A DNA stretch of 64,000 bases, taken from contig JAHEZL010000024.1 in assembly GCA_023251095.1 (NCBI GenBank), positions 1 through 64,000 of the forward strand, given 5' to 3'. Under the pieces are notes generated by a model, which was not told the DNA's origin, made no database searches, and was given only the letters and a program-made list of their open reading frames with translations. Source of the stretch: Flavobacteriales bacterium (lineage in GTDB: Bacteria; Bacteroidota; Bacteroidia; Flavobacteriales_C; GCA-002722245). Position numbers and translations under genes: made by a program. Positions 10,392 through 35,077 of this stretch are shown one piece after another. Each line of letters opens with the position of its first letter. Position 1 is the stretch's first letter.

Positions 10392-10461
10392 GAGTATGTG
10401 ATAAAATATTCTTTTTTTAAATTCTATTTTTCTATTTTAGTTTGAGAGGGGCAATCTTACA

Positions 10462-11353: not shown

Positions 11354-11377
11354 AAAATAAAATCACACATATTAAGA

Positions 11378-11408
11378 AGCCTTGTCGCAAAACGACAAGG
11401 CTTTTTTT
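11378..11408 (+). terminator. Rho-independent terminator
   Basis: A 10-bp perfect stem AGCCTTGTCG (11378-11387) / CGACAAGGCT (11393-11402), a 5-nt loop CAAAA, then a run of seven T. It ends the DUF2795 transcript. Confidence 0.92.
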
Positions 11409-11442
11409 ATTTCTTCAAAATCACAAAAACAAAAAATAGGGT

Positions 11443-11484
11443 AAAAATGGGTATTTGGGATGCCCGTCTGGCTGGATACTTTTG
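11443..11484 (+). promoter_or_regulatory. Module promoter, copy 1
   Basis: AAAAATGGGTATTTG at 11443-11457 contains the TTTG -33 box. After exactly 19 nt comes TACTTTTG (11477-11484), a TAnnTTTG -7 box. The same 15-mer, spacing and downstream leader (GCGCATTGAATG...) recur at 28407-28448, before another T9SS surface protein. Conservation of the AAAAATGGG part upstream of the -33 box suggests an operator in addition to the core promoter. Confidence 0.8.
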
Positions 11485-11520
11485 CGCATTGAATGTCTTA
11501 ACCTTATTAAACCGCAAAAA

Positions 11521-13425
11521 ATGAAAGCAAAAAAATTTTTACTCACCTTCATGATGGTTTCGCTGTCAACGCTATGCGCAACAGCCCAACCACTTATCAA
11601 ATGGAAAAAATCTTTTGGAGGAACATTGGCCGATGCCGCCCGCTGCATCGCCTCCGACGCTCAAGGAAATGTATATATCGCTGGGTACTTCCAAGGTACT
11701 GTTACCTTTCCTTTAGTTACAGGAAGTGTAACCCTATCATCAAAATACGCCTCCATGGATATTATGATGGCCAAACTGGATGCAAAAGGAAATATGCTAT
11801 GGGTAAGCACTATGAGTGGCGAGTCAGACGACTATGCTTCGGCAATTGCGGTTGATACAAGCGGAGTTTACCTGTTAGCAGATTTTGTAGGAAGTGTAAA
11901 TTTTTATACCGGAACAGGTGTAAAAACTTTAACCTCTTCGGGTGATCATGATGTGGCACTTTACCACGTTGATACTGATGGAAATTATAAATGGGCAGTT
12001 AAATTAGGCGGAAATGGTGTCGACATGGGACTTGCGCTTTCTATCAATGCCAATAATATTTATATAGGAGGAACTTTTACCGGAACTACCGATCTGGATC
12101 CGGGTACAGGACTAGCAAACTTTACTTCGAACGCTAACTCGGACGATGCGTTTGTATGCAAATTGAATAAATCAGGATCTTTCGTATGGGCTAAAACCTT
12201 TGGTACTGCTACCAATGAAACCATTTATGGTATGTCTATCGATGCTTCGGGAAATGTGTATACTACCGGTTCTTATTTCGGAACCATGGATTTTGATCCG
12301 GGTAGCAGCGTAGCTAATCAAGTTGCAAAAGGCAGTCAAGACATATTTGTTTCTAAATTAAATGCTTCCGGTGATTATGTATGGGCGAAGAGTTTTGGGG
12401 GTACGAGTGTCGACATTGGAAAAGCGATTGATATTGATCTCAATGGAAATGTGTTACTGATGGCCCACTACAATGGCAACGTTAATTTCGGAACTGATGC
12501 AAATTTTACATCAAAAGGGAGCTACGACATATTTATAGGTAAATTGGATTCAACAGGTGCATTTATATGGGGAAGAACTTTGGGCGGCGCCACTACTGAA
12601 TATGCTTATGGCATTAAGGCCGATAAAGATGGCAATGTATATTCTTACGGAATTTTTTCCAGCACTGTAGATTTCGATCCGGGTATAGCAGTTAGCAATT
12701 ATACTTCTCCGGGAAGCAATGGCATTTTTGTACATAAGATGAATAGCAAAGGAGAATTCTCATGGGTATCCACCATGGGAGGTACAATACAAGCATTGCA
12801 TTATGGTGGAAATCTGGCGCTGGCTGCCGCACCCGATAATGTTTACATCTGTGGTAAGTTTGCAGGATATTATTTCCTACCCAATAATGGAAGTGATGAT
12901 GCTTTTGTAGTAAAAGTAGGTTCCTGCACCGAAGCGATTGATGTTAGCATCACCACAAAAAGTCAAATTGATGGAGGGGGTATAAGTGTTGGTCAGGAGG
13001 GAGCTATTGACTATCGCTGGTACAAATGCAATGATCTTTCCGGTGGAGTGATTGGCGGAAATTATCAAACTATATATCCTGTTAATTATGGAAGTTATCA
13101 AGTGGTTGTAAATATGGAAGGTTGTTTAGATACTTCGGCCTGCGTTGCATATACTAAAGACGTTACGGGTGTAACCGAATTCAGTTCAATAAATAACAGT
13201 ATTAATATGTACCCTAATCCGGCAAATCAAAATATTTTGACATTAGGTTTATCAATCAATGCAGAGGTCAAGATATCTGATGCTCAAGGAAGATTAATTC
13301 ATAGTGCCTATTTCGAAAAAGGGGATCATCTTGTTGATGTTTCTACTTTCACCAATGGTGTTTATATGGTTCGTTTTACAGGAGAAAATGTAACTACTAC
13401 AAGGATTTTGGTGGTAAACAGGTAA
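11521..13425 (+). CDS. T9SS-exported beta-propeller repeat protein
   Basis: 634 residues from the ATG at 11521. A longer start at 11455 would overlap the promoter and block the signal peptide. Signal peptide MKAKKFLLTFMMVSLSTLCA, then about seven repeats of 50-70 residues (about 25-470) of SBBP/YVTN-like type: D-x-GNVY-x-x-G-x-F-x-GT-x-DFDPG ... DxFVxKLNxxGxFxWAKxxGG. These probably fold as a propeller. A short Cys-containing domain follows (about 475-555). The C-terminal 75 residues match a type A T9SS sorting domain (MYPNPANQN ... KISDAQGRLI ... FTNGVYMVRF). Secreted or surface-anchored; ligand unknown. Its leader and signal peptide are near-identical to those of the gene at 28486, showing shared ancestry of the 5' ends. 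Confidence 0.88.
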   Translation: MKAKKFLLTFMMVSLSTLCATAQPLIKWKKSFGGTLADAARCIASDAQGNVYIAGYFQGTVTFPLVTGSVTLSSKYASMDIMMAKLDAKGNMLWVSTMSGESDDYASAIAVDTSGVYLLADFVGSVNFYTGTGVKTLTSSGDHDVALYHVDTDGNYKWAVKLGGNGVDMGLALSINANNIYIGGTFTGTTDLDPGTGLANFTSNANSDDAFVCKLNKSGSFVWAKTFGTATNETIYGMSIDASGNVYTTGSYFGTMDFDPGSSVANQVAKGSQDIFVSKLNASGDYVWAKSFGGTSVDIGKAIDIDLNGNVLLMAHYNGNVNFGTDANFTSKGSYDIFIGKLDSTGAFIWGRTLGGATTEYAYGIKADKDGNVYSYGIFSSTVDFDPGIAVSNYTSPGSNGIFVHKMNSKGEFSWVSTMGGTIQALHYGGNLALAAAPDNVYICGKFAGYYFLPNNGSDDAFVVKVGSCTEAIDVSITTKSQIDGGGISVGQEGAIDYRWYKCNDLSGGVIGGNYQTIYPVNYGSYQVVVNMEGCLDTSACVAYTKDVTGVTEFSSINNSINMYPNPANQNILTLGLSINAEVKISDAQGRLIHSAYFEKGDHLVDVSTFTNGVYMVRFTGENVTTTRILVVNR

Positions 13426-13453
13426 TGGAAATAATCTCCCAATACTTCTGAAT

Positions 13454-13484
13454 AAAACCCTCCCCGCCGCGTGGAGGGTTTTTT
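13454..13484 (+). terminator. Rho-independent terminator
   Basis: AAAACCCTCC (13454-13463) pairs with GGAGGGTTTT (13473-13482) and continues into T. A near-copy lies at 26799-26832 in the corresponding position of the second module. Confidence 0.9.
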
Positions 13485-13540
13485 GTTTCCTGTTGAGTTT
13501 TCATAAATAATTGTATTTTTAGGCAGCATCATAATCTAAT

Positions 13541-13884
13541 TATTGCTGCCATTGATCAGGGAGCGCTTTCTTCTATTTTTCCCCATTCCGTTTCTGCTAT
13601 TATCATCTATGATTTACAAAGGAAAAACCAACCTGTATTTCAGTAAAAACTGCAGAGAAGTATTGGATGAAAAAAGCCATCACTGAATTGTTTTCTATGC
13701 AGCATTAAATTTGTAGTAACGATGAAGTACAAAAATTCAGTGGGTGAATTTTTCTGGATGATGAACAGCATTATAATATTGAAAAAAAAAATTAAAATTC
13801 ATTCCGGTAACTGTGGTTTCATATATGAATAACATTGATGTGCATCAACTCATCAATGTATCTGAAACCAACGGGTTAATATAA
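13541..13884 (+). pseudogene. Collapsed remnant of a LuxR-type regulator pair
   Basis: This stretch aligns base by base with the intact regulator pair at 26903-28362, with large pieces missing. 13541-13692 matches the N-terminal part of the first gene (CCATTGATCAGGG, TTTCAGTAAAAAC and GCAGAGAAGT are shared). 13700-13828 matches the PAS-like part of the second gene (TTAAATTTGTAGTAACGATG and more). 13829-13884 matches its last codons and stop. The start codon region, about 835 bp spanning the join, and about 255 bp covering the second HTH are deleted. The upstream sequence with the ATAATTGTATTTTTA element (13506-13520) is also shared. There is no open frame. From 13885 to the hairpin at 13984 I see nothing else. 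Confidence 0.9.
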
Positions 13885-13983
13885 ACTGCCAAAAGCTATG
13901 AAGCCCCCAAACTAAACTTGAAATAGCCCAAAGTTATATGCCCGCACAAAATATTCAAGTATTGGTCAATAAAAATTAAAAAA

Positions 13984-14016
13984 CGCTTTCGCTCTGGTAT
14001 GACCTGAGCGAAAGCG
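13984..14016 (-). terminator. Terminator of the giant T9SS gene
   Basis: An 11-bp stem, CGCTTTCGCTC (13984-13994) with GAGCGAAAGCG (14006-14016). Read on the minus strand the stem is followed by TTTTTTAATTTTT. It lies about 70 nt after the stop of the 4129-residue gene. Confidence 0.85.
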
Positions 14017-14083
14017 ATAAATTATATTCTCTGGAGTGGACCTTTGAAAAAAACGAATTGAAAAGATTTGTAGAATAACACCT

Positions 14084-17000
14084 TTACAATAAAACCACTC
14101 TTTTCACCACCGAATTTTTTCCAGATTGAATGTGCACCAGATAAACTCCCGGCACCTGATTCACCAGAATTAAATTTCTTTGGTTATTGGCCAGCACCCT
14201 TTCTTCAAGCACCATTCCAGTGATATTAATCACCCGAACAAATGACGATTCTTCGGAGGAATACACAGTAATATTAGTTCCTTTTTCGTCAGACGGATTT
14301 GGGAAAATCAACACTGCCAAATTATTTGAATCAACAGCATCCACCTCTAGCTGCGATGACGGAGCCAGCATACCAGCCAGAGATATTTCATAAGTCATGG
14401 TGCAAAACTCATCCAGCAATTCAGGATCGTTGCCTTCTTCCGCAGGCGAAAAACCTAAATAAGCTGTGTTGTTGTTTTTACTTCTGTCGTGAATCAATTG
14501 TCCGTCATATTCCTCAATGCTCCAATCGGCCACCAAATTGGTTTCTGTTGCGGAGAGTTTAACATCTTCATTGGCGTTAATCTGATCGAAGGTTCGGGCA
14601 ACATTCCACAAACGGGTTTCAAAAATTTCACCGATAAATGCCTTATCGGAATTATCATATCCGGTATATAGATAGTTATTGGATTTTTTAAACAATCCCC
14701 AACCAACCGGAACAGCTTTCACTCCTGTTGTTTTTCCATCCAAAATAAATGTGATATACCCCTTGTTTCTAACAACTGCAATGTGATGACACAAACCATC
14801 GTCGATGGCAGGGAAAGAATTAGCGGTTAAATTGTACCAACCATTGCCCACAGAAGTATTCATTTGCAATACCATACCACCCTGGCCTCCCAGTCCGGTG
14901 TATAGCACCAATAAATACCCACCGCTGGCTCTGCCCGAAATCACTGCACCTCCACGATCTCCGGTATTGAATTTCACTTTTGCTTCAATAGTAAAATCAC
15001 CTTCATTAAACTCGTATGCATTGATAAAACCAGATGTGATAGCATTGTCTTTTCGTTGAAAGTTTGCTGCATTATAAGTTGGACAATCATTTTTAAGATT
15101 TAACGATACAACAGCAGGTAAAGACGAACAACCATTTTGAGATATGCCACTTACACTAACAGTAGAATTACTCATTACTCGCTTAGTAAACTGGTGTCCG
15201 CTAATATTGTCGGGAGTCCAGGTTATATTACTAAAACGCGAATCATCATTTTTCCATTCCACAGCATCATAGAATTCGGCTACATATTTATTAAAAGACT
15301 TGTCATAAGCAAAATTCCCTTTTCCTTCGGTAAGAGGAAAACGCAAGTATAAATGCTGATCACCAATAGAGTAACCCATTGCCAGATTTTGTATGAAAAG
15401 AGAATTCAACTCAGCAGTATATAATCTGAAATCACGAATACTGCCTTTCATGCTTCTTTGTGAAAAACACCCTCCGATACTCAATGAATAGGTATCGAAG
15501 CCAGTTCGGTTATTCACATTAGTACGCGACACTTGTGTGCCATTGATATAAATTGCACGATAAGGATTTTGCACATCACCAAATACAAAAAGAAGATGCG
15601 TCCATTTACCAAAATATGGTGTAAAATCAACTGCATCGCTGTACGTAGAACTAGTATTGTATCCCGATTGCAAATACAATTTTTTAGTGGCACCCGATAC
15701 GTAAGAAGCAGTACCATCAAACATACTTCCGGCACTAAAAATGGTAGCTTCACCAGATACATCAGCATCCAGCTTCACCCACAATGAATAGCTCAGCACC
15801 TGATTATTGGCAGGAATTTTCATACTCGTATTAACAATGCTCCCTGCATTTCCATTGAAATAAGGAAAACGTTCGGCAAACAACTCAATTGTTTTTCCAA
15901 CACAAACAGACGAAGCTTCTGTTACCTGTAAAATTTCCTGGTTGATGAGATTCACCTGAGTGCTTCGCTGTGTGCTGCAACCATTAGTAATCCCAACAGG
16001 CATTACTGTTACCGTGAAAGCAGAAGGCTGGTTAATTCTTCCCAATACAATACGGGAACCATAATTTTCAATAATATTCTGGTTGTTATTCCACGTATAA
16101 AGAAAGCCTTTCCACGAGACTCCTGTTGCATTGATAGGAAGCTGTTTTTTATTCGCACTTAAATCATTCAGCACAAATCCATTTCCTTCATCCATCATCC
16201 AATACGACACTAAATTGGGTTCATTCCCATTCAACTTTTTTGTATAGTCGGCCTGAATTTCGGCAGCAGTTTTACCCACACTCCAAATACTCATGTCATC
16301 TATTCCACCCTGAAAGCGACCCCATTCATTCCCACCTAAATTCGGACTCAGATGAGGGATGTTTGTTGAAGCAGCCCACTGACCTTTCAATACTCCATCC
16401 ATATACAATGCAGGAGCTCCGTTAAGGTAAACTAATGCCACATGATGCCAGCCAGAAATATTACTAGTGAAATTAGTCTCTCTTACATTATTCGGTCCTG
16501 ATAGTTTTTCGTGAACCTGAATACCATTGGTACCACAAGCAATTCCTACACCCGTATGTCCGGTTCCCCAGTAAGTTGCTCCTTCTGCCGCACCCACAAC
16601 ATAAGGATATCGTGCCTGTCCGCTGCTAACCAATGGCTTTGTCGGATTCATCCAGAATTCCAATGTGAAATTGGATTTCAAGTCTACATAATCCGAACGG
16701 CTGATAGCAGAATTCACACCATCAAAATTCAGGTAAGTCCGCTGATCAGCAGTAAGGCTGATCACAGATTTATCATTATCAACACAAACATTGGTTTCGG
16801 CAGGCAGTGATACGTTCACAAAATTCACCAAAGTAAAATTTTTGCTTGCCGAGGTAGACGTACAACCTTTATTAGTAACACGTACAGCATAAGTACCTGA
16901 TTCAGAAATCACAATACTATTTGAATTTGCTCCTGCGATATTCACTGTGTTTTTAAGCCACTGATAAGTAGCTCCCTGCGCAAAAGGAACACTGGCCGTT

Positions 17001-20000
17001 ACCGTTTCTCCTGAACACAATACAGGAGAACTAAAACTCAATGCAACATCAACAACTCCTTTCACAGTATGACTATTGCTTGCGACATATTGTTTGTAGG
17101 CACATTCATCCCTATTCAATACTTCATAATGAACTACATCATTCGGAAAAAGATAGCCCGAATAAAAATAGGATGAGCCCGACTTCTGCACTAGTTTAGA
17201 ATTCACATACCAATTCACATCGGGATTACTGCCCTGATTCTTCATTACCGCATAATATCCAAGCAGGTTGGCAGATGTATAAACTTTCACATTGGAAATA
17301 GAAGTTGATGCCATGGCTATTACACGCATATTTGCAAACGGAGCAATAGCGCTGGTGTGCACCAAAACATTATTTACAAAATATCTGATATTATTTTTTT
17401 CAACTGAAATTCTCAACACAGTACCGCTAACAGGAAGAGGCAAGGAACGTATCAGCTTTCCTTTTTCTTCAATTAAAAAACTCTGGTTAATGATCCAAAA
17501 GCCCAGAGGTATTTCTGTCTCTTGCTTTTCATAGGCAGAAGTACAAAATCCAATCATACGTGTTCCCCCCAGCTGATCATTAAATGTATATTCTACGCCT
17601 CCTGTTGAAATTGCTTCAGCACTATATCCAATAGCTGTGAATGTAGAACCCTTACTCCTGAGCTCATTATTAGGCCCTACAGTTCCGTTTTGTACATTGG
17701 TCCAGGTAATTGGAGTAATGCCCGGACCATTACAAACAGATGAAGAATTCGCCATATCCACAAAAAGTTTTGCCTCAGGAACAATAAGAGTTCTCTCCAG
17801 TTTTACAGCAGATGCAAATATTTTATTTTCACAGGTATTGTCGGATATATAAGCCAGCTTTACCTCATCCTGAGGAGCAAGCACACTATTAAATATATGA
17901 TTGACACCCGTAAAATCCTTGGCAAGAATTCCGTTAACATACCATTTTGCTCTTCCAGGCTGATTGTCTAAACCCGTTAACACAAAACTTTTGCTCTTTC
18001 GGGTGATCACTTTTATGGAGAGCGGAAAAGTATTGTTATATACAGCCACATCCACGTACAAAGGACCCGTCACCTTTCTGCTGGAGTTATGAACTAGCAC
18101 CTTATTGATATAATAAACCACTCTACCCGATTCTAAACCGACATGCAACAAATCTCCTGATTTATTGGAAGCAATGTTTTTTACCAATACTCCGGCTTCA
18201 TAAATGCTCAACACACCTGATTCATTTCTAACAAAAGTATAGTTGCTGCCGGTATAACTATTGCTGTTATTACCAGCATAACTCAAACCAATGGCATAAG
18301 TATTCAATTGCACCGGCATTTGAACATATTGATTTACAGAAAGTGAAGCCAGTGATACAGCACCTGCATTCCAGGAATTAGAGGAATTTGATTTTTTAAT
18401 CACTCCTCCCACAGTATCCACATTTACCCTGTTGGTCCATTTGGGTGCTGCATCTCCTTCATCGCATATTTGATTGTCAGGTTGCACCTCCAGTATATAA
18501 TCTCTGGCAGGCTCTCTCACAAGAGAAAGAGAAGCCTTGGCGGTAAATTTATCGCCACAAATATGACTGGTAGTTATTTCAGCAAAAACAGGATTAGTAT
18601 TACTTCCCGGCCAGCTGAGAGATGAAACATTTCCTGCAATTGTTCCCTGATTGTTGTACCATCGCAAACTATATGGCGCGGTAAGATTGGTTACATTTGC
18701 GGTAAACGCAATCATTCTTTTTCTAATCAACTTCACATCCCCACAGGATTTTGCTTTACTGCCAAAAAAAACATTGACCCACAACCTTGAAGTTACTCCG
18801 TTTAACTGGTGAATTTTAGTTGAGTTTTTATAAAACGCAATCACATTTCCATTTCTGGAGATTTTTAAAGTATCATCTGCTTTTATATTAAAGGAAGGAA
18901 TCGACGACTGCATTCCATTAAACCATATCTCAGCACGGGTTAGAAAAAAAGCAAAACTATATCGTAATTCAGCTGGCGGTCCATCACCTGCCACAATCGG
19001 CAATTCCGACAAGGCCAATATAAAATCATCACCTCCCTTGGCTACATAAAATAAAGTTCCGTCTCCGTCTAAATAATGAAGAGATGTTCCTTTTGCTTGA
19101 TCAGCAGTTGAAGTAATAATATTGCCCGCGCTGTTTACTGTAGTACCTTTCACGGGAGTCCACAGCACAGTATATTCCTCATTTATAATTTCACACATTG
19201 TAGAGGGAGTAGCCTCTACCGTTACTACAGGTGTTTCAAACTTCATAACACCAAAGGGTTTTGAAGTAACTGAACATCCCGAAACATCGGAAACCACCAC
19301 ATGATATAATCCCGAATCAGCGACATCTACATACGCCCCTCCTGTTTTAAACACTTCAGTGCCTTTGTACCAAACCGCAGTTTGTCCGGTAGCGAGATAA
19401 GTATTCAATCGTAAAGTTTCACCGGTACAAAGCACATGCGCTTTATCAGACGTAATCCATGCATTTTGAATTTCATAAGGCACTTCATTACTGATCACCA
19501 ATGGATTGGAACTCACCAATCTTATTTTGTAATCCTTTCCTCCCGCAATGGCACTATCCAATACAATAGCAAACACCGTATCACTTATTGCAGAATTAAT
19601 ATGTCCAAGATATTTTGGATGAGTGAAACTTCCTTTATCATCCGACAATTGTAAAACGAAAGCATTGTCGCTAGCAAAATTTCCATTCACGCGATAGGTA
19701 AATGCCAAAGGATTAACTCTGCATAATGTAGCATTGGCCATGGTATCCAAAATTACCGTTGGCGGATTTACACTTATATTTTCACCATTATCATTAGCGA
19801 TAAATCTTGGTGACGAACTTTTTACCCGCACACGATAACCTGTTCCAGGAGTGAGCACATTTGGAAGCACACCCAAAATAGTTCCCTGCCCTGTATTTTG
19901 CAAAGTACCTATCACTAACGGATGGGAAAAAGAACCATTCTTATCAGAAAGTTCTGCCGTGAAAACATTCTCTGAATCAAAACTGAATTTAGTAACATAT

Positions 20001-23000
20001 GGAATTTGAATACTGCTTCCGGCATTGTATACCAAAGGAGAAATTTTTCCGGTGAACAACGGAGAAATAGTAATATCTTCTCCATTATCACCTCCAGTTA
20101 TCTCGGGAGAAGTGGACAATACACGAACACGATATTGTGTTCCAGGATTCACAAAATCAGGAAGAGTAACGGTTACTTTTCCAGAATTGTATCCGGTAAA
20201 AGTTGCTAAAACTATAGGCTGAACAAAAGTTCCATTCTCATCCGACAGCTGAATTACAAATTGATTATCGCTATTAAATCCTCCTTTTGCCGAATAGTAA
20301 ATATCCATAGGATCACTTACCGTATACTGCAATGGAGAAATACTGTACGTGAAAATTTCCTGCGGCGCAATAGTTATTTCATTAGTAATTGACATACCAA
20401 CCACAGCAGGACTTGCTCCCACTACTCTCACCTTATAATGCACTCCGTTTGCTATAGACACTGGAAGGGTTCCCGCTATACTTCCCGAAGAAGTAGCCTT
20501 GGCAGTACCAATCACTGTTGGATTTGCAAAAGAACCATTTTCATCAGAAAGCTGTAATGAAAAAACATTGCCTGTATTGAATTTCAATAAAGTTTCGTAA
20601 GCAATATAAATCTGATCGCCTTTGTTATACTGTGTTTGCAAAGGATTCATTGTAAACAGACTTCCTATACTGATATTTTCACCATTGTCACTTCCTATTG
20701 TAGCTGGCGTGCTTGCTGTAACACGAACCCTATATTGGGTGGACCACGTTACCCCATTTGGAATTGTTACAGGATAAGTAGCAGAAGCTGTTCCCGCAAA
20801 AGAACCCAATACAACAGGAGAAAGAAAAGATCCCTGAGCATCCGACAATTCTACTTTAAACACATTATTACTTTGCACATTGCCATGCAAAACAAAAGGA
20901 ACATTTAAGGTGGATCCTTCCAGATAAGTTAAAGGATTAATTTTTTTGGTTTCAATTTCAGGAGCTTTGATGGTAATGTATTCTCCATTGTCAAAACCTT
21001 CGTAAGCCGGAGCCGATGAAATCACACGTACTCTGTATGAATTTCCTGGTGTAACATTAAAAGGAATTGTCACTACAATATTTCCCGTGAGCATATTTCC
21101 CGCTAAAGCGCCTAAGTTTCGTGCCGCATCAAAACTTCCGTTTTCATCGGACAGCTGCGCAGTATATACATTACCAGCTCCTACACAACGCTTGGCGGTG
21201 AATGGAACATTCATCACATCGCCCAGATAATAATTGAGAGGGTTAACACTATTCGCTTGTAAAAATTTATAGGTTTCCGGATCGCTGTATATCTTGTAAT
21301 CGGCATAAGCGCCGGAAGTATTGTAAAACAAATGATACAATCCATCTTCTACTTTAAATGCGCGGACAATTGAACTGAGTGGAAAAGCATTTTCGTTGGT
21401 TTTATTTCCCTGCAAATCGGTTTCCACCATCCAGGTTCCAGTGGTGCTCATCGCTTTATCACCCGACAAAGGAGATTGAGAACCACCATACATCGTGAGC
21501 TTATTGTCGGTTTTAGTGACATGCGTAATCTTATCATCGCCACTTCCGCCAAAGCGGTAACTTTTGGTGACGACTAAAGACGCACTCATCTCGAAACACC
21601 AATAATCATAGCCACCTCTGCCCGCAACAGTAATATCATTGCCTATGCCTGATTTCACGTTGGCATACAAACGATAAGTTCCGTCGGACATCCTTATGAA
21701 ATCAACAAACTCGGTGAAATCAGTCTGATAATTTAATCCGCCAATGGTTCTGTCCCATTGCTGAGTTCCATCACGATTGATTCTTACCATCCAGATGTAC
21801 TTACCACCTCTGTTGATATCGTGCTGATTGGTGCGGTCACCTATGTTATAAATGCCGTTCAGATTATCAATAGTACCGAGCAAAAGCACTGTACCATCCG
21901 GCATCTCCATTATTTTTTTCAAATTATCATAGGCAAGACTACCATATATTTTATCCCACTGAAGTGTGCCATCAGCTGCAATTTTGACTACCCAGTAATC
22001 ATCCAGCCCCACACCCACGTATTTCACAACTACTTTTCCATTAGGCAGGTGAATTAAAGGTTCTCCTTTTTCCAGACAGATATTTAGTTCGCTGGACAAA
22101 TAAGTTTCCGAAGTACCACCGATGTAATATCCTCCGTCAGCTGCAGGAGTAATAGTAGTGAGGACATCATTCCAAAATCCGCGATATGATTTTTCCCATT
22201 GCTTTGTTCCATTGCCGCTTACTTTAAGCACCCAGTAGTCGGCATCAGCTTTAGCCTTGTCATGCTGGAGATACCAATCGCCACAGGAAGGTGTACAGAA
22301 ACAAGCTCCATTTGATTGCGAGTGATCTCCCGAAGGATCGGAATGTGTAGTACCTGCAATTAAAAATCCTCCATCCGGTGTTTGAATGATTTTACTTCCA
22401 ATGTCATCGCGGTTTCCTCCATAGGTTTTTTCCCATTCAATACCTCCGCAATCGTTCAGCTTCACCAAACAAAAGTCGTAATTTTTTGACCCTATCATCA
22501 TATAACTCCCATCAGTGAGTTTCAATACATCACGTACCTGGAAATCTCCTGAAGCTGTAATTGATTTTGTGTTGATGGTTTCAAATTCACGGATGCCTTT
22601 GGCTTTATTGCTAAGGCCTAAGTTTTTTGTTCCGTTGAAAGCCTGAATCCTGTAAAAATATTCCACACCGAAATTAGAGCTCGCATCGAGATAATAAACA
22701 CTGTTGGCAGGTATTGTAGCCACCACCGAATAAGTACCATTAAGTGTTGACGAGCGCAATACATTATAAGATGTTTCATTTTCAGCATTGTCGACCCACG
22801 TGAGCCACAACTTTGAAACCGTAGTATTGACAATCAATCCGCTAGGTGCCGTAGCACTTACCTCTACCGTTTGTTTACCCGTACCGGTACAACCCCTATG
22901 ATCGGTGACAACTAAATTATATGCATAAGTTCCCGGAACCTGAGTTCCGCTGAACGTAGCATTTCCTTTGTTAATAGCACTCAGTATAGTAGATGGATTC

Positions 23001-26473: not shown

Positions 26474-26492
26474 GTAGTAAAAATTAGGGCGG

Positions 26493-26500
26493 CAAATATA
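26493..26500 (-). promoter_or_regulatory. -7 box of the giant gene
   Basis: Read on the minus strand this is TATATTTG, an exact TAnnTTTG, 20 nt upstream of the ATG. No convincing TTTG -33 box lies at the expected distance (TCTT is found instead). Confidence 0.5.
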
Positions 26501-26564
26501 CTATTCGCGAAAGTTTTAAAAGAGACATTATCGCAAATACTTTGTCTCCTGATGAAAATCGAGT

Positions 26565-26606
26565 AAAAATGGGTATGTCATATTTCTCCATCCGACAGGT
26601 TTCTTG
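26565..26606 (+). promoter_or_regulatory. Decayed module promoter, copy 2
   Basis: AAAAATGGGTATGTC at 26565-26579 matches the 15-mer of the other two module promoters except at the last bases, where TTTG is lost. The following sequence still aligns loosely with 28422-28450 but has no TAnnTTTG. It probably no longer works as a promoter. It lies 39 nt before the stub at 26645. Confidence 0.65.
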
Positions 26607-26644
26607 CTTTTTTTCACTGCACATCAAAAAAGAATCGTCCTATC

Positions 26645-26776
26645 ATGGGTTCATACATGGAAACATCAGGGCGTCAAATTGTTTCCAACACAGAATTAAG
26701 TCAGGGAGTATATTTCTGCACCATTCATGACGCACAAAGCGCTCAAAACAAAACAGTTAAGTTTATTGTTGAATAA
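26645..26776 (+). pseudogene. C-terminal stub of a lost T9SS surface protein
   Basis: 43 codons in frame to a stop. The end, ELSQGVYFCTIHD ... KTVKFIVE, is nearly the same as the sorting-domain end of the protein at 28486-34899 (QLSQGVYLCTMYD ... ETIKFVVE). Signal peptide and body are absent; only about 40 nt separate the dead promoter from the stub. It is therefore an internal-deletion remnant, not a small gene. The rest of 26474-26902 holds the giant gene's promoter, the dead promoter, this stub and a terminator. Confidence 0.85.
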
Positions 26777-26798
26777 TTATTTCTGCCATTTTCTTTGA

Positions 26799-26832
26799 AC
26801 AAAACCCTCCACCCCGGAGGGTTTTGTTTTTT
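26799..26832 (+). terminator. Rho-independent terminator after the stub
   Basis: CAAAACCCTCC (26800-26810) pairs with GGAGGGTTTTG (26816-26826) around a short loop and runs into TTTTTTG. It is a near-copy of the terminator at 13454. Confidence 0.88.
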
Positions 26833-26902
26833 GTTTCCTGTTGGGTTTTCACAAATAATTGTATTTTTACGCAGCTTCACAACCTGATTATTACTACCCC
26901 CT

Positions 26903-27574
26903 ATGAACTTAGCTGTAACAAAAAATACAGACTTATCTTCTTTTATAACCGCCATTGATCAGGGGGTACTTTCTTCCATTTTTTCCCATTCCGTTTCCGC
27001 CATTATTATTTACGACTTACATAAAAAATGCAATCTGTATTTCAGTAAAAACAGCAGAGAAGTTTTGGGTGAAATAATTCATCATAAATTATTTGCTGAA
27101 AACGAATATTTATTGAATCTGGTGGCCAAACCCTATAACAAAAAAGTAGCGGATCTAATTAATTGGAAAGAGGCCAGCAACCATGAAAAAACACAACTTC
27201 GGTATTCCATCAATCTACCTATAAAATCAGGAGAAGAAACAAAAATTTTACTCACACGCTACTTGTATTTGCCCAACGAAAAAGATGTTGTATTGATTTT
27301 CATCACCAATTTAACCGATGAAACACCCTTCCATTCCATAATTTTTACGGTAGAAAAACAAAAAAACAGTGAGGAATATGAACTATTATTCAAAAACTCT
27401 GTTTCTACATCAATCGCCGACAACTCACTATCTCCGAGGGAAAAAGAAGTTTTGCAATTGATTCATTCCGGCTTAAACAGCAAGCAGATTGGAGAGCAAC
27501 TAGGCATTAGCATAAATACCGTTAGCACCATCCGCAAAAACATCAAAAAGAAAAACAAGAAAAGGGAAGAATGA
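26903..27574 (+). CDS. LuxR-HTH regulator with PAS-like N-terminus (pair 1, first gene)
   Basis: 223 residues. The N-terminal part (about 15-140) has the alternating pattern of a PAS-like sensor domain (SVSAIIIYDL, NLYFSKNSREVLGE). A LuxR/GerE-type helix-turn-helix sits at about 172-215: LSPREKEVLQLIHSGL, then KQIGEQLGISINTVSTIRKN. There is no receiver domain, no kinase domain and no membrane segment, so it is likely a cytoplasmic one-component regulator. The stop overlaps the next start by 4 nt (ATGA), so the two are translationally coupled. The same two-gene arrangement recurs at 35508-36999 and, decayed, at 13541-13884. Ligand unknown. Upstream, ATAATTGTATTTTTA (26856-26870) is kept in the decayed copy and may be its promoter. 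Confidence 0.85.
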   Translation: MNLAVTKNTDLSSFITAIDQGVLSSIFSHSVSAIIIYDLHKKCNLYFSKNSREVLGEIIHHKLFAENEYLLNLVAKPYNKKVADLINWKEASNHEKTQLRYSINLPIKSGEETKILLTRYLYLPNEKDVVLIFITNLTDETPFHSIIFTVEKQKNSEEYELLFKNSVSTSIADNSLSPREKEVLQLIHSGLNSKQIGEQLGISINTVSTIRKNIKKKNKKREE

Positions 27575-28362
27575 AGCCGTTTAGCCAAAATAAAATTCAT
27601 AAAACAATCGATAAATTGTATGATCGGTTTTTCAGTCTGGATACGAAAGACGATGAAAAGATAGATTATGAAGAAGAATTAAAAAATCCATATTTTAAAA
27701 TGCTCCCCGAAGCAATTCACGTTTTCAATTTACTCACCAAAAAACTGGTGTATATAAGTCCGAATTACAAAGACGTAACCGATTGGACTGCTGAAGAAAT
27801 GGCAAAAGGAGGGCCTGAATTTATGTTGAGTTTAATACATCCCGATCACGCCAAAATATATAACGACCATATATTATTATCGATGTTTCGGCAGTTCTCG
27901 GCACACGCTATTAGCAATGATGTATCCAGTATTAAATTTGTAGTAACGATGAAGTACAAAAATTCAGTGGGTGAATTTTTCTGGATGAGGAACAGCATAA
28001 TGGTATTGAAAACCAAATTAAAATTCATGCCGGTAACTATGGTTTCATATCTAAATAACATTGATCACTTTAAGCAAGATGAAGCCATTACATTAACCAC
28101 TTTAAAAAAAGATGAAAGGGGTAATTTTAAAGCCGTAAAATCACAACGCTTTTACAATTTCGACACCAGAGTGAGCTTAACAAAAAAAGAATTGTCGGTG
28201 CTTTATCTTTTAAAAACCAACAATTCCACCGACGAAATCGCACAGGAGCTTCACCTCAGCAAACGCACTGTTTACAATTATCGAAATAGTTTGCTAAAAA
28301 AAATGCAAGTGAATAATGTACACCAGCTCATCAACGTATCTGAAAGCAACGGATTAATATAA
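27571..28362 (+). CDS. LuxR-HTH regulator with PAS domain (pair 1, second gene)
   Basis: 263 residues. Helical N-terminus, then a PAS domain (about 45-165: AIHVFNLLTKKLVYISPNYK, IHPDHAKIYNDH, FFWMRNSIMV), which resembles PAS_3-type folds. C-terminal LuxR-type HTH at about 203-252: LTKKELSVLYLL, DEIAQELHLSKRTVYNYRNS. It differs clearly from the first gene of the pair in the recognition helix (SKRTVYNYRNSLLKK against SINTVSTIRKNIKKK), so the two may read different DNA or form a heterodimer. It is followed 44 nt later by the promoter of the 2137-residue T9SS protein, which it may control; that link is inferred from position only. Confidence 0.87.
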   Translation: MKPFSQNKIHKTIDKLYDRFFSLDTKDDEKIDYEEELKNPYFKMLPEAIHVFNLLTKKLVYISPNYKDVTDWTAEEMAKGGPEFMLSLIHPDHAKIYNDHILLSMFRQFSAHAISNDVSSIKFVVTMKYKNSVGEFFWMRNSIMVLKTKLKFMPVTMVSYLNNIDHFKQDEAITLTTLKKDERGNFKAVKSQRFYNFDTRVSLTKKELSVLYLLKTNNSTDEIAQELHLSKRTVYNYRNSLLKKMQVNNVHQLINVSESNGLI

Positions 28363-28406
28363 TTTACTTTTTCCTCTCCTTAAATTCACAGGAAGTAAAA
28401 TCACCC

Positions 28407-28448
28407 AAAAATGGGTATTTGTCATCCTTTATTCCCTCGATAGTTTTG
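28407..28448 (+). promoter_or_regulatory. Module promoter, copy 3
   Basis: AAAAATGGGTATTTG (28407-28421) including TTTG, 19 nt, then TAGTTTTG (28441-28448). It is identical in the 15-mer and spacing to 11443-11484. The leader between the promoter and the ATG at 28486 is nearly the same as in copy 1. Confidence 0.82.
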
Positions 28449-28485
28449 CGCATTGAATGACTTAACCATTATTAAATCGCAAAAA

Positions 28486-31400
28486 ATGAAAGCAAAAAAA
28501 ATTTTACTCACCCTCATGATGGTCTGGCTGACATCGCTTTATGCCGTCGCCCAGGCAGAGCTGAAACTCATTGTTACAGCTCCCAATTTTCAGAGTTTTA
28601 TTGCGGGAGATTTAACCGCATTTAAAGGAACTGATCTTACCAAAAGTTTCACTGTACGGAATACTGGTAACGCTTCTTTTACAGGAGTAATTTCCTACAC
28701 CGACACTTACGGATCTGCCCTTAGTTTACAGGATGTAGTAGTTACTTATGAAAACGGAAGCGTCCCAGCCGGAACTACTTTTTCATGGAAAACCACAGGA
28801 AATGCTACCTTAAAAGGAACACTCACTTCAGGTACTATTTACGAATTAGTGGTAACCAATTTACCCGTGAGCGTGGGCGCCAACAAAGGTTTAATTTTTA
28901 CCAGAAAAGTGAGGGTCACCGATTGTATTGATGACATTGTAAAAGGAAAATCCAATGTTGATTTAAAAGTGTGCGACAGCAAAAGCGCCAATTGCATTGA
29001 AATGGAAGATGCATGGCAAGCGGGTACCACACGATTGATACAAAGAATTTCAAAAGCAAAAAGCGAATTTATTGATGTAATGGACGTGGCCGTGTCAAGT
29101 CACGATTTTTGTGCCTACAACCCTAAAAACCCTACTCCCGCCAGCGGATTTCGCAAAGTGAGTTATTTCACAAAAATGCATAATTCCACTTCGGGAGAAA
29201 TTGTAAAAGATTTTTATCTAAATATTGCATCAGGAAGTGCCGAAGAAATTCCACTCAGCAGTGTAAAAATTTATAAAGCAATTTATAATAGTACTACCAA
29301 ACAATATGTTAGCACAGGTTCTCCTTTAGCAATCACCGCTGTGCCTCACCCTAAATATGGTTGGGCCGTTACAAGATCCAGCACCCGATGTTTTTCAGAT
29401 GCTATCGCCAATGCCTATTATCCCTTAGGAAATATTAAAGGAAATGACATGTACTACATTGAATTCAAAGTATACAATTGTCAACCTACCATTGATTTAA
29501 AAAACTTCACTACTTCTTCTTACGACGGGTGGAGTACGTCGTGGATGGGCAAAGACGATTGCGATGCCGACCTGACTTCGGCTACAACAATTACAGCAAA
29601 AAATACTACGGCCAATCCACTCACCAATCCCGATGTTGCCAACACTACCTTTTATTTCAATCACGTGATTTGCGGTGCATGTTATGGTGATTATGTGGAC
29701 AATGCCGCTACTTATGTTGAGCGCGTATCAACACTTCAAATGAACGAAACCGCAAACTGCAGAATCGACAACTTATTTGTAAACAATGCCTATGCATTTT
29801 TAGGAACCAGCTATTCCGACGGAGTAAATTATCAGGCCGATAATGCACGATTGGTTATTGTTTTAAAATTAGAAGGCGGACTCAGTTATTACCAGGGAAC
29901 AGGCACCGGAGGATATTATCCTTTCCTGCAATTCAGAAATGCCGATGGCAAAAACTGGAAACCCATAAATACTGCAGGTACAGCGGTTGGTTATGGCATT
30001 CCAACAAATGAATTGCCTAAATACGATTACAAAAAAATTAAAATGTTTGAGTTTAAAATGACGGAGCTCTACGCCATGTATCCAAAACTGGCACAAAGTT
30101 CTTTTGATGAGAAACAGCAGATTTTGTACGACTACATCAACTCTGCCGACATTGCTTATTCCCTCACCGGAAATTGCTCCGACCCTAATAGAGAAGAACG
30201 TCCGAATTACTCCGTTGAAATGTATTTAGTGGCTGATGCATCTTGCGGAAATCCTTTGGTAATGCCCTCTTTCAAAATCACACGTGATGCCAACATCATG
30301 TGTCCGGGTTGTATGTTCCCCGGTGGTGCAGGCCGTTTCGCGAAAATGACACGATTGACTTACGGTAAAACTGATAACAACGACAACGGTTTAGCCGACG
30401 ACGGAAGTGCTTTGCTGGCTGCTACAGTAAACACATTAAATTCGGATAACAATCCCGATAATAACATCCGCACAAAGTTTGGAATCATCGGCGACCGTGT
30501 GCAGATGAACACCAAATATTATTTAACTTCTTCCGAATCGTGCAACGGAATTACTTTCGACGATAAGATGATTGGTGATTTGAAATATTCTTATTTAAGA
30601 ATGTCCTTTCCAAATGACACTTTTAAAGTGGATAAATCAAATCCGTTAAAAGTGATCATCAGCAGCGCCGGAATCAATTATACTTTCCACGTTCCCGCTA
30701 CGGCAATGCTTACACAAAGCACAACGGCAACATCTCTTTTTGAAGTAAATTTAAATACGATCAGCACTTATAAAGATGCTGCATCACCTAAACTTCCTGC
30801 CAATTTCCGTTTCAAATCATTTGATGAAATTGAAATTGAATTCTTCATGGACATACAATACAATGTAAAAACAAAAGATGCTTATGAAGAAGTTAGTTTT
30901 CAAAACATGCCTTACTTTTCTTCTACTCCCATTGCGCTGTATGTACGCGATTTCCCGCAATTTACCTGCGATCCTAAATTAGGACCGGTAGTAAAAGATT
31001 CGGCAGGAAAAGTGATAGAGTATATCAAACCTCCTTTCACCACTCCTTTGTACAAAAACACCTGGTTGAATTGCGAAGGCTATGAAGCTATTTTCAATCT
31101 CGTTGGAATTCAGCAGGATTACTGGTATAACGATGGGTTTGGCTCTTATGCAAAAGATAAATCATGTGATAAAGGACGTTTACTTTCTTTCTTCTCATCG
31201 ATAGGGAATTACAATTTCCCTAAACTTTTCGCAAACGAATTTCGTCCCGCTCCAATGATTGAAGCTGTGGATGTTTTAACACCTGAAGGATATAAATTCA
31301 TTAAAATCGACAGAGGAATTTCTGATGCCGGAAAAACTACTCCGATGTATTACACCGGCGGCACATACTCAGGTGTAGGCGTTCAAAATGCGCCTTCAAC

Positions 31401-34400
31401 AACTGCAGTAATCGACGGGATTTCTTATACTTTATCGCATTTATCGATTCCAAATATTTATACTCCTATCACGGATATAGATGCCATCAACGGCACCAAT
31501 AAAAATGCAATGCGACAAATTGATGAGCATTTGCTGGATTATGTTTGGGTAACCAACGAAGCGATATGCGATCTGATTCCAAGCGGAAAAGATTACACGC
31601 CAACACAACCTACCGATACTTCTGCCTTAGGAAAACAATACCGCTTCAAAGCTTTCTTTGATTTGGATCCTATCAGTCAGTATGACGTGATGGTTTCTCA
31701 AAATCCTGGAAATCCATATGAAACACCGGTAAATCAACTCACCAGCACTTTGAGTTCAACCGGAATTGTAGCAGTAACCACCAGCAAATTCAATCTTGAT
31801 TTCAGCTTGAACAACGGCAGCAACGGTTCTCCTGCAAAATTCCCTTTTGTTACTTTAACTTATGATCAAACTATTTTCAGTTCGGTTTTAGTAAGCTCTC
31901 TTTTACCAAAAGAAGTAACAGAAGTGAACAAAGTTGTAAACGGTGATTTCGTGAGTATTTTGTATCAAATAGATCCTCAAAACACCAATATCGCAAATAC
32001 TATCAATCTTGAAAAATCTGTTACCCTGAGCATCAAAGGTTCTTTGGCAAAATGCTTTAACGATCCAAACAATCCAGCAACTTTTGAAGTTGGATTCGGT
32101 TGGGATTGTAACGCATGGCCTACTGATTTTGATAACCTTAACGACTTGTGTTACTACTCAACAGAAGATGTGAAAGCTTACTCTATCACTTCAGGAATCT
32201 TAGGAAATGTAACGGCGAAAAGCGTTAGCGAAAGTTGTATCAATCCAAAAATTCATTACATCCATACTTTAACAAGTACTGGATCAGAAGTGAATAAAGT
32301 GAAATACGACATTGATTTCCCTGATGGTTTAACTTTAGATACAACCAGTATCGTGGTGAAATACGGCGCTAAAATTTTAGCTAAACCTCTTGATTTTGCT
32401 ATCAAAAACAACAGTACTCCAGCCAACAGCGAATTGTATGCGTTGAGCCTTAAAGACACGGTGTTTAAAGTTGCTCCTTTTGCAGGTGCAGTTGTGCAGG
32501 GTGCGCGAAATGAAATCATCACTGTGGAATTTGATGTGAAGGTGGCCAGCGGTTGCGACATTTATGTAGCTACTTCAAAAACCATTATCAAATCTTCAGG
32601 ATTTGCTTTCTGCGGCAATGAGTTGGATGACATTGATTCTATCACTCCTGCCTACAAAATTTGTCCGGATGTATTCACTGTATACATCAAAGGCGGATCA
32701 GTAATTTGCGGAAATGAAAACATGAGCGCGCCAATTGTATTGAAAGCAATTGTTCCCGATTCATTAGGAAATTGTTTCACCAAACCATTGACTTATGAGT
32801 GGACACAAGTGCCTTCATCAACAGTACTTGGTATTACTGATTCTTTAAAAGTTCAGCCGAATGCAAACACCACTTATCAAGTAACGGTAAATGATGCCAA
32901 CGGAAGAACAGGTACTGCGCAACACACCATAAAAATTGGTTATGAATACGAAATCGGTGATGTGAACTGGGTGTGCGGAAGCAGCAACAAAAACCTTTGT
33001 ATTCCTATTAATGCAACGGTTCCCGTGAGAAACGGAATTATTGGAATGGACTTCACACTGCGTTACGACAAAAGATATCTGGCTCCGGTAACATCGGTTA
33101 GCGCAAGTAACTTAGGAAAAGTAGTGGTGTTTAAAAACTACCCGGGAACTTATGCCATCAGCGTCAACACCAATCCAACGGTAGAAACTGATCCAAACAT
33201 CGCATACGCCAACATCAGTATTTATTACACTAGTAATTTAACGAAACCGAATGTTCCGCAATTTACGGATTCAGGCTTGGTAATTTGTGTGCCCTTTACC
33301 ATTGTTGGAAATCCTGGATCTGGAACTTCCATTGATTTAACGATGCGCGAAATGACAGAGTCGTATACTTATTTTGAACGACCTGTTTGCTGGGACAAAG
33401 GAACATTTAAAGTTACGGGAACAGGCACTTTTGCAGGGGCTTTGGAATATTATCAGCCTTACAGCAAAAGCGGTGCGACTTTAAATTACGCCGGATTGAA
33501 TCAAAATAATTCTATTGTAACAGGAGCCCGTAATACCATTACTGTATTGGATTCCTGCGGAGGTAAGGTGATTGGTCAGTACAGTGGAACCAACAACAGC
33601 AATAGCTTTAATGTGCCATTAAGCTCATTGAAAAATGTAGTGAAAATTTCACGCGACATCAACAACAAGGTAACTCTGGGTGCTGATGTCAGCAACGGCT
33701 TACTCAATTTTGTAAATGCCCGAGATACACGCGCCATGGAATACATCACTACTTTGAACACCACAAGTTGTGTGGATCAACTGTTGATGAGCAGCTGTCC
33801 GAATGTGTTTGTTCCAACAGCAACACAAATGATTGCTGCCGACGTGAACATGAGCGACTCCGTACGCGCCAACGACATCACGCAATTGCAAAGAAGACTG
33901 GTGAACGAAATCAAAGAATTCAAACAAGTGCAAAACACAAAAGGATTGCCTTCTTTGGATTGGAGATTTATTGATCCGGCCATTATTTCTACCAATGCTG
34001 ATTTTACTCTTTCAACGAAATTCCCTTTCAGTGATGGTAAAGTCCGTTATTGGAGAGACAACGTGCCTAATGTTCCTGAATGCCTAAGTGTTGAAGAGCA
34101 ATGTGCCAACACTCCGAAAAAAGTTTTCAGAGGAATTTTATTGGGTGATGTGGTGAACTACACCAGCAATTATTACACTTCAAATGTTTACCTGAAAACG
34201 GAAGATCCAAACAAAACTTTAAGTCCGTTTACCTTTAGCATCAACCTGCAAAAAGCAGAACAATTAAATGCTACGGATTATAAAGTTGCTGTAACGTATT
34301 TCACGCCGGACAACGATAAAGCTTTCGGTTTCGACTTAGGTTTGCAATACAATCCCGACAGCTTGAAAGTTGTGGATATGCAAGAAGATGTTAGCATTTC

Positions 34401-34899
34401 ATCAGGCGGCAGATTTGTTTGGAACGACGATGCCGAAAACTCTTACATCCGTTCTACTAACTACACCCCCGGTGAATGGTCATCACGGGGAACATGTTAC
34501 TACCTCATTGTTAGAAAATTCACGGGAGGATCATTAACCTCTGCCGATTTAAAAGCAGGTTATGGAATGATCAACGGAGATTGGGCGAACGTTGAAGTGA
34601 TGGGAAGCAGTGCTGCAGGCACTACTAAAATCTCTAACGACAACGGCTTCAAATTCGTGATCCAACCGAATCCGATGAAAGATGTCTCCATAGTGGAATA
34701 TAACTTCAGTGCCAACGATGCAAAAAACAAAATTGAAATCACGAATGTACTGGGACAAAAAATTGCGGTATACTCTAATCTGACTACAAAAGGACAGATT
34801 AATTTAAATCGCAATCAATTGAGTCAGGGCGTATACCTCTGCACCATGTATGACGCGACAACCAACCATTCGGAAACAATTAAATTTGTAGTGGAATAA
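28486..34899 (+). CDS. Large T9SS surface protein with cohesin-like and dockerin-like segments
   Basis: 2137 residues from the ATG at 28486, chosen because it gives the signal peptide MKAKKILLTLMMVWLTSLYA and matches the sister gene at 11521. The first 1400 residues are Cys-containing beta-rich domains of DUF11/conserved-repeat style (FTVRNTGNASFTGVISYTD near the start). Then come a PKD/Ig-like domain (about 1405-1488), a cohesin-like domain (about 1489-1645: VRNGIIGMDFTLRYDKRYLA), a dockerin-like calcium-loop helix (about 1783-1818: ADVNMSDSVRANDITQLQRR), a second cohesin-like domain (about 1912-2042: AFGFDLGLQYNPDSLKVVDM), and a type A sorting domain (IQPNPMKDVS ... LSQGVYLCTM). Probably a cell-surface structural protein or adhesin. 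Cohesin and dockerin calls are from pattern only. Confidence 0.85.
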   Translation: MKAKKILLTLMMVWLTSLYAVAQAELKLIVTAPNFQSFIAGDLTAFKGTDLTKSFTVRNTGNASFTGVISYTDTYGSALSLQDVVVTYENGSVPAGTTFSWKTTGNATLKGTLTSGTIYELVVTNLPVSVGANKGLIFTRKVRVTDCIDDIVKGKSNVDLKVCDSKSANCIEMEDAWQAGTTRLIQRISKAKSEFIDVMDVAVSSHDFCAYNPKNPTPASGFRKVSYFTKMHNSTSGEIVKDFYLNIASGSAEEIPLSSVKIYKAIYNSTTKQYVSTGSPLAITAVPHPKYGWAVTRSSTRCFSDAIANAYYPLGNIKGNDMYYIEFKVYNCQPTIDLKNFTTSSYDGWSTSWMGKDDCDADLTSATTITAKNTTANPLTNPDVANTTFYFNHVICGACYGDYVDNAATYVERVSTLQMNETANCRIDNLFVNNAYAFLGTSYSDGVNYQADNARLVIVLKLEGGLSYYQGTGTGGYYPFLQFRNADGKNWKPINTAGTAVGYGIPTNELPKYDYKKIKMFEFKMTELYAMYPKLAQSSFDEKQQILYDYINSADIAYSLTGNCSDPNREERPNYSVEMYLVADASCGNPLVMPSFKITRDANIMCPGCMFPGGAGRFAKMTRLTYGKTDNNDNGLADDGSALLAATVNTLNSDNNPDNNIRTKFGIIGDRVQMNTKYYLTSSESCNGITFDDKMIGDLKYSYLRMSFPNDTFKVDKSNPLKVIISSAGINYTFHVPATAMLTQSTTATSLFEVNLNTISTYKDAASPKLPANFRFKSFDEIEIEFFMDIQYNVKTKDAYEEVSFQNMPYFSSTPIALYVRDFPQFTCDPKLGPVVKDSAGKVIEYIKPPFTTPLYKNTWLNCEGYEAIFNLVGIQQDYWYNDGFGSYAKDKSCDKGRLLSFFSSIGNYNFPKLFANEFRPAPMIEAVDVLTPEGYKFIKIDRGISDAGKTTPMYYTGGTYSGVGVQNAPSTTAVIDGISYTLSHLSIPNIYTPITDIDAINGTNKNAMRQIDEHLLDYVWVTNEAICDLIPSGKDYTPTQPTDTSALGKQYRFKAFFDLDPISQYDVMVSQNPGNPYETPVNQLTSTLSSTGIVAVTTSKFNLDFSLNNGSNGSPAKFPFVTLTYDQTIFSSVLVSSLLPKEVTEVNKVVNGDFVSILYQIDPQNTNIANTINLEKSVTLSIKGSLAKCFNDPNNPATFEVGFGWDCNAWPTDFDNLNDLCYYSTEDVKAYSITSGILGNVTAKSVSESCINPKIHYIHTLTSTGSEVNKVKYDIDFPDGLTLDTTSIVVKYGAKILAKPLDFAIKNNSTPANSELYALSLKDTVFKVAPFAGAVVQGARNEIITVEFDVKVASGCDIYVATSKTIIKSSGFAFCGNELDDIDSITPAYKICPDVFTVYIKGGSVICGNENMSAPIVLKAIVPDSLGNCFTKPLTYEWTQVPSSTVLGITDSLKVQPNANTTYQVTVNDANGRTGTAQHTIKIGYEYEIGDVNWVCGSSNKNLCIPINATVPVRNGIIGMDFTLRYDKRYLAPVTSVSASNLGKVVVFKNYPGTYAISVNTNPTVETDPNIAYANISIYYTSNLTKPNVPQFTDSGLVICVPFTIVGNPGSGTSIDLTMREMTESYTYFERPVCWDKGTFKVTGTGTFAGALEYYQPYSKSGATLNYAGLNQNNSIVTGARNTITVLDSCGGKVIGQYSGTNNSNSFNVPLSSLKNVVKISRDINNKVTLGADVSNGLLNFVNARDTRAMEYITTLNTTSCVDQLLMSSCPNVFVPTATQMIAADVNMSDSVRANDITQLQRRLVNEIKEFKQVQNTKGLPSLDWRFIDPAIISTNADFTLSTKFPFSDGKVRYWRDNVPNVPECLSVEEQCANTPKKVFRGILLGDVVNYTSNYYTSNVYLKTEDPNKTLSPFTFSINLQKAEQLNATDYKVAVTYFTPDNDKAFGFDLGLQYNPDSLKVVDMQEDVSISSGGRFVWNDDAENSYIRSTNYTPGEWSSRGTCYYLIVRKFTGGSLTSADLKAGYGMINGDWANVEVMGSSAAGTTKISNDNGFKFVIQPNPMKDVSIVEYNFSANDAKNKIEITNVLGQKIAVYSNLTTKGQINLNRNQLSQGVYLCTMYDATTNHSETIKFVVE

Positions 34900-34913
34900 T
34901 TTTCTTTCAGCAG

Positions 34914-34948
34914 TTAAAAAAGGCGATCTCAAAAGGGTCGCCTTTTTT
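34914..34948 (+). terminator. Rho-independent terminator
   Basis: AAAAAGGCGA (34917-34926) pairs with TCGCCTTTTT (34938-34947), 18 nt after the stop of the 2137-residue gene, and continues in T. Confidence 0.88.
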
Positions 34949-35020
34949 CTTGTAGAGACGCAAAATTTTGCGTCTCAGGATGTGATTTTCCGTCTCCGGA
35001 AAATCTTCCGTCTCTACAAG
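34949..35020. repeat. Palindromic GTAGAGACG element
   Basis: Outer arms CTTGTAGAGACG (34949-34960) and CGTCTCTACAAG (35009-35020) are perfect complements. Inside are a second hairpin, GAGACGCAAAATTTTGCGTCTC (34955-34976), and a smaller one around TTTTCCGTCTCCGGAAAA. Nested hairpins between two genes suggest a dispersed repeat. It lies directly behind the terminator. Confidence 0.8.
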
Positions 35021-35077
35021 ACGCATACCCTAAAATGATATTTAATTTTTTAATCCTACTTTTGATTTACCTATTCT

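Follow-up and report, generated by a model that had tools for sequence, protein, structure and literature searches.

T9SS surface-protein units with paired PAS-GerE regulators in a lineage-specific island of a Flavobacteriales bacterium

The window analyzed here, a stretch of 64,000 nucleotides from a Flavobacteriales bacterium (GCA_023251095.1, contig JAHEZL010000024.1, positions 1 to 64,000), carries an island that is a lineage-specific set of T9SS surface-protein units. Each unit combines a dedicated promoter, a giant secreted protein, and a terminator with two PAS-GerE regulators whose genes are translationally coupled. Taken as a whole, the locus is probably best explained as a T9SS island in which one unit, A, was duplicated and its copies decayed in a complementary manner, and in which the regulator pairs would activate their own surface genes via the heptamer ATGGGTA. 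The component parts are of known kinds, and it is their combination and the locus-specific heptamer promoter that are new; a literature search for a locus joining a T9SS adhesin to a PAS-LuxR pair returned no matching paper. To our knowledge, how Bacteroidota choose T9SS surface proteins for display is poorly known. Here, a compact unit brings a predicted operator together with its sensor-type regulators and a giant secreted product, two species provide the states before and after decay, and in one unit a promoter and a signal peptide have clearly outlived the protein they once served. The predicted operator is short, occurs within a full promoter nowhere but at this locus, and is directly testable.

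Extent of the island and structure of its units

The island (11357-37014 of the window, 25.7 kb) was found in two of the five species of the genus that were compared, namely the window species and G003. The left and right flanks are directly joined in G004 and G002 (window 11357 to 37014/37083), and in G001 the same two flank genes lie side by side, leaving an empty site at this position in three congeners. Between the same flank genes, G003 has an undecayed two-unit layout which, read in the orientation of the window, consists of surface gene A, reg1, reg2, reg2', surface gene B, a DUF2141 gene, and pair 2, that is, unit A with pair 1 and unit B with the DUF2141 gene and pair 2. Its unit A encodes a 2139-residue T9SS protein, unit B a 2138-residue paralogue, and reg2' is an additional reg2-like gene in unit A. 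The original prediction had proposed a search of relatives for other versions of the locus, and this two-unit layout and the three empty sites are what the search returned; G003 is the single sister genome carrying the island. Among the genomes searched, full-length homologues of the regulators at more than 30% identity were found, besides the window species, in G003 only, the same match being contig JAPLEZ010000142.1 of a Bacteroidetes MAG. A comparison with Rfam gave no match to a structured RNA at the locus.

Three copies of the layout can be followed through the window, with all of their features on the plus strand. The first, A1, encodes a 634-residue SBBP β-propeller protein with a T9SS sorting tail (11521-13425; Pfam Por_Secre_tail, 4e-11; SBBP, 1.1e-8), which also has a LipL53-like SBBP match (1.3e-27) that lies under that model's curated cut-off. 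Sorting domains above the curated cut-off were obtained with both PF18962 and TIGR04183 for the genes at 11521 and 28486, and with PF18962 for the gene at 14084. The signal peptide of the A1 protein is of the A/B family, and its mature body is unrelated to A and B. In a self-comparison of the leaders of copies 1 and 3, which span 11443-11592 and 28407-28556, respectively, 11443-11573 and 28407-28538 are 84% identical, and the homology stops at the end of the signal peptide. The two copies have only the promoter, the 5' UTR, and the signal peptide in common, and from there to just past the stop codon the A1 sequence, comprising the SBBP propeller and the T9SS tail, is unrelated to copy 3. Downstream of A1 lie a terminator-like hairpin of the unit-A type (13454-13486) and the dead remnant of a regulator pair (13487-13881), marked by three large deletions, frameshifts, and the loss of the start codon. 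The similarity claimed earlier between 13541-13884 and 26903-28362 is indeed present, as self-comparison aligns 13449-13839 with 26796-28065 in several blocks that are 80-91% identical, with E-values between 8e-21 and 1e-50; in a gapped alignment, the deletions amount to ~55 bp including the reg1 start codon, ~800 bp over the reg1/reg2 junction, and ~260 bp of reg2, and there are extra frameshifts. Copy 1 had been described as a surface gene that has lost its regulators, which is correct for the pair, decayed through deletions and frameshifts, but the body of the gene is no homologue of that in copy 3.

The second copy, A2, agrees with its earlier description as live regulators behind a dead promoter and a 43-codon stub. 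Judged by sequence, its promoter (26565-26606) has lost its function, with the core ATGGGTAT retained and the −33 and −7 elements gone, and nearly the whole body of the surface gene is missing, while the pair at 26903-28362 is intact. The C-terminal stub (26645-26776) had been predicted to resemble the end of the copy-3 gene, and 26651-26773 does match residues 2097-2137, the last 41, of the copy-3 protein at 44% amino acid identity. Together with the terminator-like hairpin behind it (26801-26832, unit-A type), however, the stub is 68% identical to copy A of G003 versus 55% to copy 3 of the window, and 26692-28360 is matched by the 3' end of G003 A plus its pair. By these comparisons, the stub, its terminator, and the A1 remnant are all of the unit-A type. 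Between A1 and A2, a gene on the minus strand (14084-26473) encodes a T9SS protein of 4129 residues that contains PKD and Laminin_G_3 domains. The genus offers no close relative of this protein or of the propeller body of A1; the best matches are at about 30-39% amino acid identity and mostly in other families. Between the dead A1 regulators and the 4129-residue gene, a remnant of a DUF4846 C-terminus (13923-14079) is 78% identical to an intact gene elsewhere (G000:C32:88177-89136).

The third copy, unit B, encodes a T9SS-sorted surface protein of 2137 residues (28486-34899; Por_Secre_tail, 1.1e-7), for the remainder of which no Pfam domain and no homologue of solved structure was matched. It is 88% identical in amino acid sequence to G003 B and 65% to G003 A. 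A viral origin was considered for this protein and rejected, as no relative was present in viral contigs. The gene is followed by a terminator-like hairpin (34922-34949) unlike that of unit A and by a gene for a DUF2141 protein (35078-35506; Pfam, 1.5e-36), which stands in front of pair 2. The original prediction was right that copy 3 keeps its surface gene and wrong that it has no regulators of its own: a second intact pair (35508-36999), 82-90% identical between the window and G003, adjoins it behind the DUF2141 gene, and the idea of one regulator pair shared by both surface genes is therefore not supported.

Regulator pairs and the predicted operator

Pair 1 consists of reg1 (26903-27574; 223 residues; PAS-like domain and GerE HTH; GerE, 1.2e-13) and reg2 (27571-28362; 263 residues; putative PAS domain and GerE HTH; GerE, 1.2e-13), joined by an ATGA overlap, and pair 2 of reg1b (35508-36200; 230 residues; GerE, 5.6e-11; 35% identical to reg1) and reg2b (36193-36999; 268 residues; GerE, 3.5e-13; 36% identical to reg2). 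The two pairs align over their full length at about 35% identity, and the C-terminal GerE HTH is above the Pfam cut-off in all four proteins. The N-termini appear PAS-like in structural models, with VqmA and the Bacteroides LuxR protein 3clo as best matches: the top fold match of the reg1 AF2 model (pLDDT 81) is VqmA 7dwm (E 2e-3), and reg2 matches 3clo (E 1.3e-8) and VqmA 6kju. Confidence in the models is moderate (pLDDT 81 and 69), and for reg2 and reg2b the Pfam match to PAS_3 is weak and under the cut-off. No receiver domain was matched by Pfam in the regulators, and the NCBIfam response-regulator matches cover essentially the HTH alone, which is 42% identical over 45 columns to that of DNA-bound NarL (1je8). 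Between the window and G003, dS is 1.5-2.4 for pair 1 and 1.0-1.6 for flanking genes, so the two versions of pair 1 may not be simple orthologues but hidden paralogues.

As had been predicted, the promoter occurs in three copies, of which two contain the exact 15-mer AAAAATGGGTATTTG (at 11443 and 28407) and one a decayed form, AAAAATGGGTATGTC (at 26565). The live A1 promoter (11443-11484) comprises AAAAATGGGTATTTG, with the ATGGGTA heptamer and the TTTG −33 box, a 19-nt spacer, and the −7 element TACTTTTG, and the live B promoter (28407-28448) comprises CACCCAA-AA-ATGGGTA, TTTG, a spacer of the same length, and TAGTTTTG. The pair of elements TTTG/TAnnTTTG is a described Bacteroidota promoter (PMC6847099; PMC9723704). 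All four live promoters follow the layout ATGGGTA, TTTG, exactly 19 nt, TA(C/G)TTTTG, save that the B promoter of G003 has TATG in place of TTTG; the length of the spacer is constant while its sequence drifts, and the −7 element is constant. The 12-mer AAAAATGGGTAT is identical in five of five promoters of the two species, whereas only 11-20 of the 51 positions upstream of it (22-39%) are alike in ungapped comparisons, orthologues included. In the 3.59-Mb genome, AAAATGGGTATTT has three copies, all within the window, two at promoters and the third inside a coding ORF (4537, minus strand), and the pattern ATGGGTANTTG-N17-21-TAnnTTTG has exactly two matches, both at the island (reversed control, 0). 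In G003, AAAAATGGGTATNT occurs at only two sites, both in its island, and the congeners lacking the island have 0, 0, and 1. A genome-wide regulon for the motif was rejected because of this confinement of the full promoter to the island.

The NarL/NarP heptamer consensus is TACYYMT (PMC4886647). The heptamer of the five promoters, ATGGGTA, reads TACCCAT on the opposite strand and fits this consensus perfectly, although a match to a heptamer at any single site is a weak test. NarL sites have a 7-2-7 inverted arrangement. The B promoters of both species, with CACCCAA-AA-ATGGGTA, loosely conform to it, and the A promoters have one good half-site, the right one. It is a speculation from these sequences that the pairs may tell the surface genes apart by the left half-site, in which the A and B promoters differ.

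From this arrangement we infer that the pairs regulate the surface genes, the most economical reading being a ligand-responsive activator directly beside the −33 box, with binding, ligand, and sign of regulation all presumed. Each pair, probably as a dimer, would sense a small ligand or a redox or light signal via its PAS domains and bind ATGGGTA abutting the −33 box, thereby bringing sigma-ABfr RNA polymerase to the surface genes with which it shares the island. Pair 1 would now act in trans on the A1 promoter and perhaps on that of B, which would also be the target of pair 2. The 12-mer could instead be the site of an unrelated regulator, or simply serve a good promoter as its upstream element, with the neighboring regulators acting elsewhere. 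Other PAS-LuxR genes of the class would fit this, as no such promoter was seen in the ~20 neighborhoods of distant members inspected, but we consider it rather unlikely, because the motif is limited to the island in both species bearing it, apart from the copy in the coding ORF, and suits the DNA-binding family of the regulators. Some of the distant PAS-LuxR genes (L119, L155, L158, and L160) are beside or near genes whose C-termini, judged by eye, resemble T9SS sorting tails. One of these loci, L155:9650-11269 in the distant class member G123, is a tandem PAS-LuxR pair between two similar genes of 269-270 residues, with a further gene bearing a T9SS-like tail nearby, and is possibly an independent paired-regulator unit.

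Several known systems come close to the island. The island regulators have a C-terminal LuxR/GerE HTH and a predicted N-terminal PAS-like fold in common with PAS-GerE one-component regulators (VqmA 6ide/6ugl/7dwm; Bacteroides LuxR 3clo), but they differ in forming an unequal pair that is encoded by a single coupled operon beside the proposed target, and are 13-18% identical to the solved structures. The perfect heptamer and the loose 7-2-7 arrangement of the B promoters recall NarL/NarP operators, whereas the regulators have no receiver domain, the A promoters offer a single good half-site, and the operator role is a prediction here. The −33 and −7 elements and the 19-nt spacer are exactly those of sigma-ABfr promoters, from which the island differs in having an activator-type heptamer abutting −33.

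Probable duplication and body replacement, and the pace of surface change

The sequence comparisons give good support to a history in which one unit was duplicated, a body was replaced, and the copies decayed in complementary fashion. The A1 remnant and the live pair of the window differ at 39 of 306 sites (12.7%), and each differs from pair 1 of G003 at about 35-36%, which places the duplication after the split from G003. What was duplicated is unit A, or a part of it that includes no less than the terminator and the pair. By codon position 1, 2, and 3, the differences number 6, 9, and 24, and the excess at third positions means that the copy was under constraint for much of its life and decayed later. 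In the window lineage, unit A thus doubled into A1, which retained the promoter, 5' UTR, and signal peptide, acquired the present, unrelated propeller body, and suffered decay of its regulators, and A2, which lost its body and retained live regulators, with the 4129-residue gene now lying between them. The two whole units at the same place in G003 and the empty sites in three congeners support the earlier proposal of duplication followed by complementary decay. As in other tandem duplications with complementary degeneration, the regulators survive in one duplicate and the promoter with its surface slot in the other, but here the surviving slot has a new body instead of the ancestral one.

Alternatively, the ancestral locus may already have had three units (propeller, A, and B) before the split, and recombination between leaders may have deleted the propeller unit from G003. 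Copy A of G003 meets the left flank exactly at the junction of copy 1 in the window (G003 7239-8419 versus window 10403-11592), just as such recombination would give, and yet an ancestral copy 1 should branch outside the other pairs, whereas its remnant is 12.7% from the live pair of the window and about 35% from G003; unless gene conversion has homogenized the two, this makes the three-unit ancestor unlikely. Far less credible still is a chimeric assembly of near-identical repeats. The window genome is a draft of 43 contigs, but the copies are just 79-91% alike, the flanks are collinear with G003 for ~7 kb per side, and the remnant has several independent deletions.

The original suggestion was that the locus might be a source of surface variation. 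This holds only in a slow sense, as one body has been replaced between species under a retained promoter and signal peptide. Surface protein B, 88% identical between the window and G003 with dN/dS of about 0.09, is under strong purifying selection, and rapid antigenic variation is not supported. A contingency locus that makes surface variants quickly, by gene conversion or cassette exchange at the common leaders, would account for a leader that is kept while the body is swapped exactly at the end of the signal peptide, and the grouping of the leaders by species at three 5'-UTR sites hints weakly at conversion. At five further informative sites, however, the leaders group by orthology, so that the first grouping is too slight to claim gene conversion, and there are only two live leaders. 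No inverted repeat of at least 30 nt was found at the promoters and no recombinase among the locus genes examined, nor were an invertible segment, silent cassettes, or simple-sequence repeats seen at the locus. With body B so well conserved, we regard a contingency locus as very improbable, and the locus is one of slow, between-species replacement of surface proteins, not a fast variation system.

A more general idea, which we put forward tentatively and hold to be improbable as it stands, is that of a surface-display slot. Its shell, a private promoter with the 5' UTR and the signal peptide, controlled by a paired PAS-LuxR sensor encoded locally, would be kept while unrelated T9SS bodies are swapped over evolutionary time. 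Both live proteins have the signal peptide and sorting tail of T9SS type A cargo (TIGR04183/PF18962), a class that includes SBBP propellers, and are predicted to be displayed at the surface; what sets B apart from known cargo of this type is the unmatched remainder of its 2137 residues.

About 3 kb to the left of the island, 6952-8550 encodes a GldM-like T9SS component with three GldM domains (Pfam, 1e-26); its G003 orthologue consists of two open frames, and another GldM-like gene occurs elsewhere in these genomes (35-38% identity). Palindromic or repeated elements lie in or near intergenic gaps at 10280-10391, 34945-35022, 41664-41729, and 63304-63406. The first of these also matches sites in G002 and the second sites in G003, so these two resemble repeats dispersed across the genus.
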